Shown here: positions 11,208 to 46,030 of the stretch, in pieces
Position numbering within the stretch: the stretch's first letter is position 1
Layout: every line of letters begins with the position of its first letter
NCBI GenBank assembly: GCA_005883355.1
Contig: VAXG01000102.1
Location: 1 to 64,000 of the forward strand
Source of the DNA: Actinomycetota bacterium
GTDB lineage: Bacteria; Actinomycetota; Thermoleophilia; Gaiellales; Gaiellaceae
Length of the DNA: 64,000 bases
Direction: 5' to 3'
Translations under genes and position numbers: made by a program
Notes under the pieces: model-generated
Database searches by the model: none
What the model saw: only the letters and a program-made list of their open reading frames with translations
What the model was told of the DNA's origin: nothing

Positions 11208-12700
11208 TAAGCGCCCCGTCGCGCAAGCACGGCTGGGAGCGTGCGGGCGAGAATGGTGATGTCGAGCCAGATCGACCAGTTCTCGATGTAGTAGAAGTCG
11301 AGCCGGACGAGATCGTCGAAGCTCAGGTCGATGCGGCCGGAGACCTGCCAGAGGCCGGTCATCCCCGGGAGCACGAGATACCTCTTGCGGTGCCACGGGA
11401 GCAGCTGCTCGTAGTCGCGAATGGGAAGAGGCCGCGGGCCGACGAGCGACATCTCGCCCCAGAGGACGTTGAGGACCTGCGGCATCTCGTCGAGCGAGAA
11501 GCGGCGCAGAAAGCGACCGACCGGCGTAACGCGAGGATCGTCCTTGATCTTGAAGAGCGGGCCCGAGGCCTCGTTGTTAGCCTCGAGCGCGCTCTGGCGC
11601 TGGGCTGCGTCGGCGTACATCGTCCGGAACTTCACCATTCCGAACGCGTGCTCTCCGAGGCCGACGCGCCGGTCGCGATAGAACACCGGGCCGCGCGAGC
11701 TGAGCTTGACCGCACCGGCGACCGCAAGCCAGAGCGGCGAGCCGGCGACGATGACGAAGCTCGATACGATGAGGTCGAAGCCGCGCTTCAACGCCCATTC
11801 CGATCCCGCGAGCGCCGGGGGGCGCAACTCGAACAACGGCGCGCCTTCGCCGGGAATGTATTCCGCCCGCTGCAGGAGCAGCTCGGTCGTGCGCGGCGCG
11901 ATCTTGACCTTGGCACCGAAACGATGGGCCTCCTCGACGAGCTCGAGCAGCTCGCGCTCGGCGAAACCGCCGTCCGTCACGATCAACTCGTGGACGTCGT
12001 GCTCGCGCAGCACGCGGGGCACTACGTCCAGGCCGCCCAGCGCGCGCAGGTCACCGGAATCGCCGCTCGGCGCGATCGCGCCGATGAACTCGTAGCGGAT
12101 CCCACTGCGATCGGCGCCGAGCGTGCGGCGCAGCGCCGCAAGCTGCTCGCCTTCTCCGACGAGCACCGTTCGCCGGCGCACACCCGTGAGCCGCAAGACG
12201 TCACGCGTCAGCACCTCGTAGCTCGCACGGAGGATCCCGATGAAGAACGCCGTGGTCACGACCGCGGTCGGTGTCAATCCGTAGGTCGTGAAGTGGTAGC
12301 CCGTCCCGAGGCCGAACGCCAGCGTGATCGCCGCGACGAGCACCATCGACAGAACGATCTGGCCCGCACCGGCTCTGAGCTCGCGTCGTCGATAGAGGCC
12401 GCCGACCCAGAAGACGAGCACCGTGATCACCGTGAGAAACGGGAGCCAGTTGCTCTCCGTCTCCCAGAGGATTCCCCACAGCGGCGGCCACTGCCCGAGA
12501 TAGAGCTCGCGAAAGATGAGCGCCACGAAGATCCCGAGGACGAGCCCCGCGAGGTCGAGCGTCACGAGGGCGGCGACACTGGTGAGGCGGCGCGCGACGG
12601 CCAGGAGCGTGGTGCGCGAGAGGAGGTAGGGCCGGGCCGAACGGATGTCTTCGACCGGCGCCGGCCGGGGCTCGGCCGGCACGGCTGGCTTCGTGCTCAC
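11204..12700 (-). CDS. polyprenyl glycosylphosphotransferase (WbaP/CpsE-type initiating sugar transferase)
   Basis: A 498-residue membrane protein with four or five N-terminal helices, a middle CoA-binding-like domain (RTVLVGEGEQ, then VHELIVTDGG), another helix, and the C-terminal bacterial sugar transferase domain from about residue 310. Diagnostic motifs are KFRTM, DDPRVTPVGRFLRR, SLDEMPQ and LVGPRPLP. It transfers a sugar-1-phosphate from a UDP sugar to undecaprenyl phosphate, the committing step of lipid-linked repeat-unit synthesis. The start is GTG 12700, supported by a TACACT box seven bases upstream. Earlier in-frame codons run through a palindromic spacer and are unlikely to be coding. 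This is the only initiating transferase seen in the window. Confidence 0.92.
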   Translation of the reverse strand: MSTKPAVPAEPRPAPVEDIRSARPYLLSRTTLLAVARRLTSVAALVTLDLAGLVLGIFVALIFRELYLGQWPPLWGILWETESNWLPFLTVITVLVFWVGGLYRRRELRAGAGQIVLSMVLVAAITLAFGLGTGYHFTTYGLTPTAVVTTAFFIGILRASYEVLTRDVLRLTGVRRRTVLVGEGEQLAALRRTLGADRSGIRYEFIGAIAPSGDSGDLRALGGLDVVPRVLREHDVHELIVTDGGFAERELLELVEEAHRFGAKVKIAPRTTELLLQRAEYIPGEGAPLFELRPPALAGSEWALKRGFDLIVSSFVIVAGSPLWLAVAGAVKLSSRGPVFYRDRRVGLGEHAFGMVKFRTMYADAAQRQSALEANNEASGPLFKIKDDPRVTPVGRFLRRFSLDEMPQVLNVLWGEMSLVGPRPLPIRDYEQLLPWHRKRYLVLPGMTGLWQVSGRIDLSFDDLVRLDFYYIENWSIWLDITILARTLPAVLARRGAY

Positions 12701-12946: not shown

Positions 12947-12982
12947 TTGCTGGCAGGGGCGCAGACGCTAGGCTCGCCCGAG
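12947..12982 (+). promoter_or_regulatory. promoter of the 12983 methyltransferase
   Basis: TTGCTG at 12947-12952, a 16-bp spacer, and TAGGCT at 12969-12974 precede the GTG at 12983 by eight bases. The reverse strand of the same site reads TAGCGT (12970-12965), so a minus-strand transcript through the hairpin block could also start here. Confidence 0.45.
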
Positions 12983-41087: not shown

Positions 41088-41100
41088 TCAGGCAAGGCTA
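41088..41100 (-). promoter_or_regulatory. leaderless-type -10 box before the 41087 operon
   Basis: TAGCCT at 41100-41095 followed by seven bases and ATG 41087. Only 19 bp separate this start from the divergent GTG at 41107. Confidence 0.45.
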
Positions 41101-41106
41101 GTACCG

Positions 41107-42300
41107 GTGAACGAACCCCGGCTCCGCATCCTCTTCGCCGCACCGGTGTGGGCGCCCTCGCGCGCGTTCGGCGGTCCGGTCGTCGCCGCCGGCGAGCTTG
41201 TCCGTCGGCTGGTCTCGCGAGGCAACGACGTCGACGTCGTCACGACGACGATCGTCGACCTCCATCGGCGCCCGGCCCTTCGATCCTCGGTCGGCGTCGT
41301 CGACCGCGCCACCGTCCACTATCTCTCGACACCGCTTCGCTACCGCTGGATGGGCATAACGCCGACGCTGCCCGCCGCACTTGCCCGGGTGAACCGGCCC
41401 GACGTCGTGCACATCTTCGGCTTCCGTGACCCGGTGACGACCGGGGTCGCTGCGTGGTGCCGCGTTGCTCGTATCCCCTACGTCTTCGAGCCGCTCGGGA
41501 TGTTCGAACCTCGCCTGCGGAAAGTGTTGCTGAAGCGGGCGCTCGACGCGACGCTGTATCGAGGAGTCGCCCGAGGAGCTGCCGCCGTGGTGGTGGCCTC
41601 GCAGCGAGAGGCCGACGGAGTCGTTGCCTCGGGCGTCCTGGCCGAGAAGGTACGTGTGCGGGGCAACGGATTTCCCGAGCCTTCGGGCGCGGAGGCGAAC
41701 GGCGACCTCCGTTCGCGCCTCGGCATTGCCGGCAACGCCCCGGTCATTCTCTACGTCGGGCGGATCGCGGCAGGCAAAGGCATCGAGCACCTGCTCGAGG
41801 CCGCGCGCCGGCTCACCGGAGCGCATCTCGTCATCTCAGGGCCGGACGACCGCCACGGGACGTCCGCGCTCGTCGAGCGAGCCCAAGAAGACGCGGCCAC
41901 CGCCGGGAGGATCCACACGCTTCCGCTGACGGACGAACCACCGCACGACCTGTATCCCCAGGCCGATGTGTTCGTACTCGCCTCAGCCGGGGAGAGCTTC
42001 GGCATCGTCGCGGCCGAGGCCGCCGCCGCCGGAACGCCCGTGATCGTCTCCGACCGCTGCGGCATCGCCAGCTTCTTCGAGGAAGGCGAGGCACTCATCG
42101 TCCCGTACGAGCGCGCCGCAGTCGTCGACGCTGTCAGCAGCGTCCTCGCTGATCCCGAGCTCCGCGCGCGGCTCGCGCGGGGCGGCATCGCTGCGGCGCG
42201 ACGCACGTCTTGGGATCACGTCACCGATCTCCAAGAGGAGATCTATCGCGAGGTTGCTTCACGTACGGCCGAGACGAAGTTCTCGACCGACGGCTCGTAG
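41107..42300 (+). CDS. GT4 glycosyltransferase
   Basis: A 397-residue GT-B enzyme: ILFAAPVWAPSRAFGGPVV at the N-terminus, VVHIFGFRDPVTTG, then YVGRIAAGKGIEHL and ESFGIVAAE (E-x7-E). GTG 41107 is the first start that keeps the first strand; an earlier TTG at 41071 would overlap the divergent gene. No clear promoter box precedes it. Its last 58 bases overlap the end of the converging fused GT2-GT4 gene. Confidence 0.88.
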   Translation: MNEPRLRILFAAPVWAPSRAFGGPVVAAGELVRRLVSRGNDVDVVTTTIVDLHRRPALRSSVGVVDRATVHYLSTPLRYRWMGITPTLPAALARVNRPDVVHIFGFRDPVTTGVAAWCRVARIPYVFEPLGMFEPRLRKVLLKRALDATLYRGVARGAAAVVVASQREADGVVASGVLAEKVRVRGNGFPEPSGAEANGDLRSRLGIAGNAPVILYVGRIAAGKGIEHLLEAARRLTGAHLVISGPDDRHGTSALVERAQEDAATAGRIHTLPLTDEPPHDLYPQADVFVLASAGESFGIVAAEAAAAGTPVIVSDRCGIASFFEEGEALIVPYERAAVVDAVSSVLADPELRARLARGGIAAARRTSWDHVTDLQEEIYREVASRTAETKFSTDGS

Positions 42301-44390
42301 CCCCAGTCGCGCACCAGGTCCCGCGAGCGCGCGCCCGCAGTGTGGCGCAGCTCAGTGTCGCTGGCCAGCTGCTCGAGTGCCGCGGCCGCGGCGCGCACAT
42401 CCTCGGCCGGAATGACGAAGCCATTCGCCCCATCGCGGACGAGGTCGTGCGCGGCGCCGACGCGGTCGGAAAGGAGGAGCGGCAGTCCCGACGCGGCCGC
42501 CTCGTTGACGACGACCCCCCAGGTTTCGTTCAGCGAGAGCAGCGCGAAGACATCCGCTCGCGCGTACTCCTCGGCGAGTGCTTCCTGCGTCAGGTCGCCG
42601 AGCAGCGTGAGCGGTACCCCCAGCTCCCGCGCGAGCTCCGTCAGCTGCTGTGAGCCCGGGCCACCACCTGCGACGACGACTCGGATTCGCTGGTCGCCGG
42701 TCGTCGCCGCCGCTCGAATGAGCGTATGGAGCCCCTTCTCCGGCACGAGCCTCGCAACGCTCAGAACCACCACGTGCTCCGGCGCGAAGCCGCCGCGCGC
42801 ACGCAGCTCGTCACGATTCGCGTGCAACCATCCGGCCCGCTTTCCCCAGGCGTCGACGTCGACGGTGTTCGCGAAGATCCGTACGTCGGCGGGCCGTGCG
42901 CCGCGTGCGACGACCGACTCCCGCGCTGCGTTCCCGACCACGAGAACGTTGGCCGCCTTCCGCACGAGTCTCGGAACGACCGCGCCCTTCACCGCCCGGC
43001 GCCAGCGTGCGCGTGGACCGAGGTCGTGGCTTTCGACCAGCAGGACGTAGGGGATTCCGTGCCCGCGCGACCAGGCGATCGCGGCTTGCGACGCGAACGT
43101 GCTCCAGCCCGAGATCACCACGACGTCGGGACTGAGGCGAGCGAGGGCGCGTCCGATCCCCGGGGTGATCGGATAGTCATGGCGGAGGAGCCCGTACAAC
43201 CCGGGGAAGCGTCGGCCACGCAGGAACTCCGCCCGATGCTCCGGCTCCACCGACCAGGTGCGATCGGCGACTGTCTCCGCCGCATAGATCACGGTGAGAT
43301 CGACCTCAGGCCGGGACGCGACGCGATCGAAGAGCGGTGAGCGGTACGGCGTCGGTTCTGGGGAGACGACGGCAACGCGGATCGCATCGCGCGGCTTGTT
43401 GAGCGTTTTCAGCCATGAGGTGGCTCGTTGACGCGCTTGGTGCGCGCGCAGGCGACGGTCCGCCCCGCGCAGAGCGAGCCGCGCCGGCTGCGAGAGGCCG
43501 AGCCCGAGCGCCTTGCGCGGCCGGCCTGCCGCAAGGAGCGTGCGGGCGGCCGCGCCGCGCACCTCGGCATCGACGCCGTGGTGACGCTCGAATGCCTCCA
43601 GCAGTCCGAGGTACGCATCGGCCGCCGCCGGAGTGATTTCTCGGCCGCTACCGAGGCCCCAGGCAAGTTCTGCCTCGTCGGCCGTGAGCCCAGGTGCAAT
43701 CCGGTCGATCTCACGCATTGCGACCTGACGCTGGAACGACGCCTGGAGCGCGCCGCGCCGCAGCGAGGCTTGCCCGGGATGCACTCGCTTGAGCACGAGC
43801 GGCTCCGCGAGGTTCGCGCCAGCGAGGGCAGAAAGCAGCCGAGCCCAAAGCTCATAGTCCTCGCTCTCGAGGTACGACGGGTCGTACCGCAATTGAGCAC
43901 GATCGACGCGCTTGCGATCGACGAGCACCGTCGGATGAAAGAACGGCGAGCCGAACAAGGCGAGCCAGCGGATGCCGGTCGCTCCCGAAGGGTTGCGGTG
44001 GAGCGTGCCCGGCCTGCCGGCAGCGTTGACATCGAGCACGGCCGAGCCGACAATCGCCGGCTGGTCGCGTCTCCCCAGCCGCTCGAGCTGGCGCTCGAGA
44101 CGGTCGCGGAGAGCAACATCGTCGGCGTCGAGTCGGGCGACGTAGCGGCCGCCTGCCTGCGCCAGCCCTCGGTTCAGCGAGGACGCCAGCCCGGCCTGCT
44201 CGTCGTTCGTCAGCACGACGAGACGCGGGTCTTCAACGGCCGACAGCAACGCCGACGTGGCGTCCGTGGAAGCGTCGTCGACAACGATCAGCTCCAGATC
44301 GTCCACCGTCTGCCGCAACACGCTCTGGACGGCTTCGCCGAGGAAGCGCGAGTCGTCGTGGACGGCCAGAAGCACGGAAACGAGCGGCAT
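42243..44390 (-). CDS. fused GT2-GT4 bifunctional glycosyltransferase
   Basis: A 715-residue protein with two complete glycosyltransferases. Residues 1-320 form a GT-A (GT2) domain: VSVLLAVHDDSRFL, VVDDASTDAT and RLDADDVAL with the metal-binding DAD. Residues about 337-715 form a GT-B (GT4) domain: VAVVSPEPTPYRSPLFD, LSVARLVPEKGLH and ETWGVVVNE (E-x7-E). The junction (NKPRDAI) has no in-frame start codon, so the two activities are made as one chain. The enzyme may add two successive sugars. ATG 44390 has TACGCT seven bases upstream, in a site shared with the divergent gene. Confidence 0.87.
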   Translation of the reverse strand: MPLVSVLLAVHDDSRFLGEAVQSVLRQTVDDLELIVVDDASTDATSALLSAVEDPRLVVLTNDEQAGLASSLNRGLAQAGGRYVARLDADDVALRDRLERQLERLGRRDQPAIVGSAVLDVNAAGRPGTLHRNPSGATGIRWLALFGSPFFHPTVLVDRKRVDRAQLRYDPSYLESEDYELWARLLSALAGANLAEPLVLKRVHPGQASLRRGALQASFQRQVAMREIDRIAPGLTADEAELAWGLGSGREITPAAADAYLGLLEAFERHHGVDAEVRGAAARTLLAAGRPRKALGLGLSQPARLALRGADRRLRAHQARQRATSWLKTLNKPRDAIRVAVVSPEPTPYRSPLFDRVASRPEVDLTVIYAAETVADRTWSVEPEHRAEFLRGRRFPGLYGLLRHDYPITPGIGRALARLSPDVVVISGWSTFASQAAIAWSRGHGIPYVLLVESHDLGPRARWRRAVKGAVVPRLVRKAANVLVVGNAARESVVARGARPADVRIFANTVDVDAWGKRAGWLHANRDELRARGGFAPEHVVVLSVARLVPEKGLHTLIRAAATTGDQRIRVVVAGGGPGSQQLTELARELGVPLTLLGDLTQEALAEEYARADVFALLSLNETWGVVVNEAAASGLPLLLSDRVGAAHDLVRDGANGFVIPAEDVRAAAAALEQLASDTELRHTAGARSRDLVRDWGYEPSVENFVSAVREATSR

Positions 44391-44408
44391 GGGCGTTAGC
44401 GTATTGCC
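44391..44408. promoter_or_regulatory. shared divergent -10 element
   Basis: Plus strand: TAGCGT at 44397-44402, six bases before GTG 44409. Minus strand: TACGCT at 44403-44398, seven bases before ATG 44390. Both boxes come from the same seven bases, TAGCGTA. Only 18 bp separate the two start codons. Confidence 0.5.
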
Positions 44409-45254
44409 GTGGCGCACGGCGAGCTTCCATCGTTCGACCTCGTGGTTGCCACCGTGGACCGAGTCGAGCAGCTGGGGCGGCTCCTGAATTCCCTCGACGC
44501 GCAGACGCACGCCGCATTCCGGGTCATGCTCGTCGACCAGAACGACGACGACCGCCTCGACCGGATACTGGCGAGCCACCCCGCGCTGGACGTGGTGCGG
44601 CTGCGCGCGCCGCGTGGGCTCTCCCACGCACGGAACGCGGCGCTCGGCCAGATCCGCGCCGGGCTCGTCACGTTCCCCGACGACGACTGCGTCTTCGCGC
44701 CCGACCTGCTCGAGCGCGTTGCGCGGCGATTCGCCATGGAACCAGAGCTGGACGGCCTCACCGGGCGGGCAATCGGCGAAGATGGGCAGTCGACGGCGTC
44801 ATGGGCGAGCGACTCGACGCTCCTGACCCGGCAGAATCTCTGGAACCGGGCGATCTCGTTCACGATCTTCCTGCGGCGGTCCGTCGTGGAGCGCGTAGGT
44901 GAGTTCGACGAGCAGCTCGGCCTGGGGGCAGTAGGGCCCTGGTCTTCGGGCGAAGAGACCGAATATCTCGTTCGCGCACTCGACTCGGGCGCGCGCATCC
45001 AGTACGACCCCCACCTTGTGATCGTCCACGAGGACAAAGTGCTTTCGCCTTCCGCGCTGCGATCGGTAGGCGCGCGCGACGGCGCCAGCATCGGGTACAT
45101 CCTGCGCAAGCACCGCTATCCGGTCCACACGGTGGGCCGCATGCTCGCCCGCCCACTTGGCGGGGCTCTGCTCGCCGTGGCACGGCGAGATTGGGCGCGG
45201 GTCCGTTTCCACCTCGCGACTCTCCGCGGGCGAGTGCTGGGCTACCGGTCGTGA
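44409..45254 (+). CDS. GT2 glycosyltransferase
   Basis: A 281-residue GT-A enzyme: LVVATVDRVEQLGRLL, LVDQNDDDRL, HARNAAL, then the metal-binding FPDDDCVF and GEETEYLVRAL, a GT2 pattern seen in rhamnosyl- and galactofuranosyl-like transferases. There are no membrane helices. GTG 44409 has TAGCGT six bases upstream. The next gene's GTG overlaps its stop (GTGA). The sugar it transfers cannot be told. Confidence 0.87.
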   Translation: MAHGELPSFDLVVATVDRVEQLGRLLNSLDAQTHAAFRVMLVDQNDDDRLDRILASHPALDVVRLRAPRGLSHARNAALGQIRAGLVTFPDDDCVFAPDLLERVARRFAMEPELDGLTGRAIGEDGQSTASWASDSTLLTRQNLWNRAISFTIFLRRSVVERVGEFDEQLGLGAVGPWSSGEETEYLVRALDSGARIQYDPHLVIVHEDKVLSPSALRSVGARDGASIGYILRKHRYPVHTVGRMLARPLGGALLAVARRDWARVRFHLATLRGRVLGYRS

Positions 45255-46030
45255 CGAAGCGGCCGTGGACGTTGCGCCGGGTCATGGGTGGCATCGGCCG
45301 CCGCGTGCCGCTGCGCCCCTTTCGCGTGCTCTTCCCCTATGCCGTGTGGCGGCCGCTCTTCCGGCTCTGGCTCGGAACGGTCCGCGCGCAGAGCGACCAC
45401 AGGAAGGCGATGCGCGAGCTCCTCGAGGTCTACCAGGACGCGTACGTGGGCGTCGACCTCGGTGCGATCGATTACGACGCGGGAGTGCACGCGAAGCATC
45501 GTCTGACGCGCTACCACGACTTCTTCGTCGACCGCATCGAGCGGGGCGAGCGGGTGCTCGACGTCGGCTGCGGCAAGGGCGAGCTCGCGTACGACATAGC
45601 GGAGCGCGCGGGCGCGAACGTCACAGCGATCGATGCGAGCCCATGGATGCTCCAGTTCGCGCGCACGCGATTTGCACATCCCCGCGTGACGTATGTGCAG
45701 GCCGACGCAGTTGACTACGCACCGGCTGAGATCGTCGACGTAGCCGTCCTGTCGAATGTACTCGAGCACATCGGCCCGCGCGTCGAGCTGCTGCGAGTGC
45801 TGCGTGAGCGAGCCGGCGCGAAGCGGTTGCTCATCCGAGTACCGGTCCTGGACCGTGACTGGACGGTCCCGCTGCGCCGGGAGGTCGGCCTGCCGCACTT
45901 CTCCGACCCCGAGCATCAAGTGGAGTACGACCCGCAGGTCCTGCGCGGCGAGCTCGCGGCGGCTGGCTGGGAGATGGGAGAGCCCCTGTTCGTCTGGGGC
46001 GAGATCTGGGTCGAGGCATTAGCGCGCTAG
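45251..46030 (+). CDS. class I SAM-dependent methyltransferase
   Basis: A 259-residue enzyme with motif I VLDVGCGKGE, NVTAIDASPWML, then AVLSNVLEHIGP and LLIRVPVLDRDWTVPLRRE. The basic N-terminal 60 residues (TLRRVMGGIGRR) may bind the membrane or a lipid-linked substrate. The C-terminal LPHFSDPEHQVEYD segment is common in methyltransferases of glycan clusters. GTG 45251 overlaps the GT2 stop (GTGA), suggesting that it methylates the sugar that the GT2 adds. Confidence 0.85.
   Translation: MTKRPWTLRRVMGGIGRRVPLRPFRVLFPYAVWRPLFRLWLGTVRAQSDHRKAMRELLEVYQDAYVGVDLGAIDYDAGVHAKHRLTRYHDFFVDRIERGERVLDVGCGKGELAYDIAERAGANVTAIDASPWMLQFARTRFAHPRVTYVQADAVDYAPAEIVDVAVLSNVLEHIGPRVELLRVLRERAGAKRLLIRVPVLDRDWTVPLRREVGLPHFSDPEHQVEYDPQVLRGELAAAGWEMGEPLFVWGEIWVEALAR

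Follow-up and report, generated by a model that had tools for sequence, protein, structure and literature searches.

RESULTS

A divergent glycosyltransferase gene pair separated by 18 bp

The window (the whole 64,000-nucleotide stretch of DNA analyzed here) carries two divergent genes, starting at ATG 44390 on the minus strand and at GTG 44409 on the plus strand, in a region rich in glycosyltransferase genes. The gap between them reads GGGCGT-TAGCGTA-TTGCC and is bounded by CAT (44388-44390) on the left and GTG (44409-44411) on the right (Table 1). Pfam matches agree with the products named in the first-pass annotation, a GT2-GT4 fusion on the minus strand and, on the plus strand, a GT2 enzyme followed by a methyltransferase. 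The starts of both genes are computed, and the same two codons were also chosen by promoter-blind gene calls based on codon usage and start-codon type. A minus-gene start at GTG 44627 was considered and rejected, as it would create a 219-bp overlap with the plus gene, and similarity to orthologues begins at residues 1-4. Not all members of the genus have the GT2-GT4 fusion; genomes G002 and G005 carry two separate reading frames in its place (L055, L056, L076, and L077). A contig search with P0002 returned only distant glycosyltransferases, in other groups.

Table 1. Coordinates of the divergent gap, its predicted promoter elements, and the flanking genes
Feature	Position	Strand	Basis
GT2-GT4 fusion glycosyltransferase, 715 aa; predicted leaderless, ATG at +1	42243..44390	-	PF00535 (residues 5-131), PF00534 (residues 526-690)
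Whole intergenic gap, 18 bp	44391..44408		Sequence; divergent gaps pile up at 17-20 bp
Symmetric core TAGCGTA (TANNNTA); predicted shared -10 element, both directions	44397..44403		Sequence; orthologues
Predicted -10 hexamer TAGCGT, 6 nt before GTG 44409	44397..44402	+	Sequence; genome's dominant leaderless spacing, 6-7 nt
Predicted -10 hexamer TACGCT, 7 nt before ATG 44390	44398..44403	-	Sequence
GT2 glycosyltransferase, 281 aa; predicted leaderless, GTG at +1	44409..45254	+	PF00535
Methyltransferase, next gene of the plus operon, overlapping the GT2 stop	45251..46030	+	PF13649

The sequence of the gap confirmed that TAGCGTA lies 6 nt before the plus start and 7 nt before the minus start, as the first-pass annotation had stated. 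On its own strand, each of the two start codons is preceded by C, as are most leaderless starts of the family, and no Shine-Dalgarno-like sequence was found before either start. For the plus gene, TAG at 44397 is an in-frame stop codon, which rules out a standard plus start farther upstream in that stretch. TAGCGTA occurs once in the 64-kb window against 1.4 copies expected, an unremarkable count; the position of the heptamer matters, not its copy number.

TANNNT as a start signal in the genome and its family

A total of 1.56 Mb, drawn from three family genomes (G026, G075, and G000, the last being the window's own genome), was sampled for the sequences preceding predicted starts. TANNNT displayed a sharp peak at spacers of 6 and 7 nt and was absent or rare beyond 6-10 nt. 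At 6-9 nt before starts it was enriched approximately 100-fold over internal in-frame ATG and GTG codons, where it was seen at about 0.05%. TANNNT placed 6-7 nt before the start codon is a major start signal in the window's genome. The high GC content, these leaderless TANNNT signals, and the genome sizes in a phylum sample may point to an actinobacterial lineage. Shine-Dalgarno-like sequences were found for 14/217 leaderless genes compared to 356/1246, C occupied position -1 in 82/123 genes with 6-nt spacing, and TACGCT, the hexamer on the minus side of the gap, ranked second in frequency among leaderless -10 hexamers in the three genomes. When the 217 leaderless promoters were aligned, no -35 or extended -10 signal stood out, and every position upstream of the hexamer, the -35 region included, carried at most about 0.06 bit; with no detectable -35 signal, the -10 box makes up nearly all of the visible promoter. 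Only about 0.1% of shuffled or composition-matched random 18-bp gaps contained TANNNT at a spacer of 6 or 7 on both strands, and the weight given to the gap at 44391-44408 derives from the genome-wide peak at these same spacers, beyond this chance estimate alone.

Symmetric boxes recur between closely spaced divergent starts

Of the 206 divergent pairs in the stretches sampled, 15 have gaps of 17-20 bp, compared to 3 and 6 in the adjacent 4-bp bins. In six of these 15 pairs, TANNNTA lies 5-7 nt from each start; four of the six are in the window's genome. Besides the pair at 44391-44408, three divergent pairs of that genome (C158:1837-1861, C9:27803-27828, and C73:46874-46897; L149, L041, and L042) have TANNNTA within gaps of 18-20 bp. 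The full heptamer was present at 10/16 leaderless genes with a divergent neighbor 17-20 bp away versus 3/180 other leaderless genes, the latter comprising 1/108 codirectional genes and 2/72 divergent genes more than 40 bp apart (Fisher P of about 1e-4 with each pair counted once). The base immediately following the hexamer of these one-sided promoters was C in 112/180 and A in 3/180, and A was rarer there than at the positions that follow (75/720; P = 4e-5).

Across 103 genomes of the family, 94 sites were found in which TANNNTA is flanked by a start-like codon 6 nt away on each side. The same count returned 6 sites when the spacing was set to 12 nt on both sides and 30 sites for a reversed-letter pattern; since reversal turns TA into AT and is a poor dinucleotide match, the shifted-spacing control was relied on. 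When the left spacer was kept at 6, the right one peaked at 5-8. When loci with 6-nt spacers on both sides were examined, both codons were the predicted starts of two divergent genes in 21/30. A phylum-wide count of one spacing outside the family gave, by eye, no clear excess over the reversed-pattern control. Pairs that recur across genomes include a QueF-like protein with a nucleoside deoxyribosyltransferase-like protein, formiminotransferase with a methyltransferase, and a dihydrodipicolinate synthase family protein or cobalamin adenosyltransferase, each with a GNAT protein. In several genera, a TANNNTA box is also shared by the divergent genes for a UPF0047 protein (133 aa) and for an approximately 500-aa protein lacking a Pfam match (L006, L022, L180, and L181).

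Two further divergent sites in the window were inspected. At 41088-41106, a divergent pair is separated by a 19-bp gap in which the minus gene has TAGCCT at a spacer of 7 and the plus side has no TANNNT. The first-pass annotation had described a sister site at 12965-12974 in which two hexamers share a central TA. The sequence there is indeed ACGCTAGGCT, with TAGGCT 8 nt before GTG 12983, but its minus-strand TAGCGT has no gene start nearby. The site was therefore not accepted as a further promoter shared by two genes: the start of the minus gene is at 12700, with its own TACACT 7 nt upstream. The box at 12965-12974 serves the plus gene only.

Overlapping boxes are conserved in orthologous pairs

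The orthologous divergent pair was located in 16 genomes representing three genera. Overlapping divergent -10 boxes were kept in all 16, although the GT2 proteins are merely 53-71% identical. In the window's genus, TAGCGTA was found in 7/7 pairs; on each side the start codon is 5-7 nt away from the heptamer, and the gaps span 17-20 bp. Among the pairs of the two other genera, 7/9 carry TAGCCTA, so that 14/16 conform to TANNNTA. The boxes persisted while the inner bases, the length of the gap, and the length of the plus-protein N terminus varied. In G002, G005, and G004, for example, the plus gene has fewer N-terminal codons, yet its GTG still falls 6-8 nt after TAGCGT. The first-pass annotation had proposed conservation of the 18-bp gap in relatives as a check; the overlapping boxes are kept in these relatives, and the gap itself varies in length. 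In most pairs from genera g18 and g37, 10-11 nt separate the minus start from its box; this would leave a leader of 3-4 nt, and the minus transcript there would not be strictly leaderless.

The two pairs lacking the full heptamer, in G100 and G106, have TAGCCTC as the plus box together with a displaced minus box, TATCGT, that shares its central TA. At these loci (L083 in G100 and L091 in G106, which belong to two different genera), ANNNTANNNT replaces TANNNTA, corresponding to another known bidirectional geometry. By our reckoning, this 10-bp arrangement, seen also at the 12965 site, fits the rarer class, in which about 23 bp separate the start sites.

These comparisons bear on whether the box could act in one direction only, for instance for the plus gene, with the minus gene transcribed from another promoter located within the opposite gene and the symmetry being incidental. 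The loss of the symmetric A in G100 and G106, where the plus box is retained, is what such a box would allow. The same two genomes, however, carry a different overlapping minus box, and no other TANNNT was found within 150 bp upstream of ATG 44390 or GTG 44409. The A that completes the symmetry, so scarce after the hexamer of one-sided promoters, is present in 14/16 orthologues. We consider a one-directional box unlikely. Conservation might also reflect part of a transcription factor operator kept for regulation, with no -10 box present, and all three inner bases (GCG) are invariant within the genus, as an operator would require. Other genera, though, have GCC at these positions but retain the outer TA/TA and the distance from the plus start codon, and sites at other gene pairs have only TANNNTA in common, their inner bases being varied; an operator is hence highly improbable.

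That a single -10 element serves both divergent genes, whose 5' untranslated regions would be very short or absent, as the first-pass annotation had proposed, is supported by sequence together with conservation. The position and spacing of the box, its enrichment across the lineage, and its conservation converge on TAGCGTA, which is very probably the core of a bidirectional promoter from which both predicted mRNAs would be leaderless or nearly so.

DISCUSSION

Comparison with known bidirectional promoters and leaderless genes

Prokaryotic bidirectional promoters described by the Grainger laboratory have a near-symmetric -10 element, and -11A of each promoter pairs with -7T of the other when 18 bp separate the start sites (PMC10268837, PMC12825309). 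TAGCGTA resembles them in being nearly symmetric, with an outer TA at both ends and TANNNT on both strands, and its predicted geometry matches the class whose start sites are separated by about 18 bp. With ATG and GTG placed at +1, the predicted start sites are 19 apart, one above the commonest published distance. A T at -18 from each start site is common, though not required, in the 18-bp class. Here, the T of the opposite ATG falls at -19 for the plus gene, and the opposite GTG start gives C instead of T at the corresponding place for the minus gene. The divergent RNA of bidirectional promoters is often antisense and noncoding, according to a published introduction. The present locus differs from the Grainger-type promoters in that two leaderless coding mRNAs are predicted and the promoter would lie wholly within the 18-bp gap, as judged from sequence.

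In leaderless genes, TANNNT about 12 bp upstream of the start has been read as a signal (Zheng et al. 2011; PMC3160421), and start-site maps of M. tuberculosis place TANNNT at leaderless starts (PMC10937400). The gap resembles these genes in the equal distance of TANNNT from the start, the weak inner bases, and the high-GC genome, but those accounts assign one gene to each box, whereas the TAGCGTA box would serve two. Our literature search found no report of leaderless genes with bidirectional or overlapping divergent promoters, which, given partial journal coverage, is weak evidence of novelty.

A model for divergent transcription from one site

We propose that RNA polymerase with the housekeeping sigma factor recognizes TAGCGTA either way round. 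The DNA would open and transcription would begin at or beside GTG 44409 in one orientation and at or beside ATG 44390 in the other. Transcription both ways, and start codons that double as transcription start sites, are thus predictions of the model. Because both mRNAs would be leaderless or nearly so, the 18-bp gap would constitute the entire promoter and leader, and the -35 regions would fall inside the first codons of the opposite gene. The likely use of such an arrangement is to express both genes compactly and at a low level from a single site.

Two polymerases could not occupy TAGCGTA together, and the first-pass annotation had reasoned that expression of the two transcription units would be mutually exclusive or strictly balanced. 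Read as a regulatory switch, the locus would express either the GT2-GT4 gene or the GT2-methyltransferase operon, one polymerase excluding the other. Steric exclusion is physically unavoidable at overlapping boxes, and in E. coli bidirectional promoters strong activation of one direction represses the other (PMC12825309). Competition appears there only upon such activation, however, and basal activity was too low for polymerases to compete at any of the five promoters tested (5/5; PMC12825309). The pairs with such sites in the family are unrelated, ordinary metabolic and housekeeping-type genes with no obvious antagonism, and both genes at the present locus encode glycosyltransferases in one region, for which joint expression would be the simpler expectation. 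Exclusive or strictly balanced expression is not supported, a switch at this locus appears very unlikely, and strong mutual exclusion would not be expected unless one direction were activated.

The shared box described here would be a two-way promoter rather than a switch, and a broader reading may apply to the lineage. In a lineage without a -35 signal, a bare 7-bp TANNNTA with 5-7 bp on each side could form a complete two-gene promoter, with start codons at +1, maintained by selection as a standard divergent arrangement. One-sided promoters would avoid the symmetric A, so that a single base after the -10 box would set directionality. We regard the chances that this generalization holds as evenly balanced.

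Implications

Shared two-way promoters are already known; the feature added here is that both start codons would stand where transcription should start. Bidirectional promoters have been recognized through RNA start-site maps. Since leaderless start codons would mark both ends of the promoter, shared promoters and their conservation can be traced across approximately 100 genomes without RNA. It becomes testable whether selection favors symmetric promoters where two genes need them and disfavors them where they do not; the symmetric base is carried by 10/16 closely spaced divergent genes and by 3/180 others.
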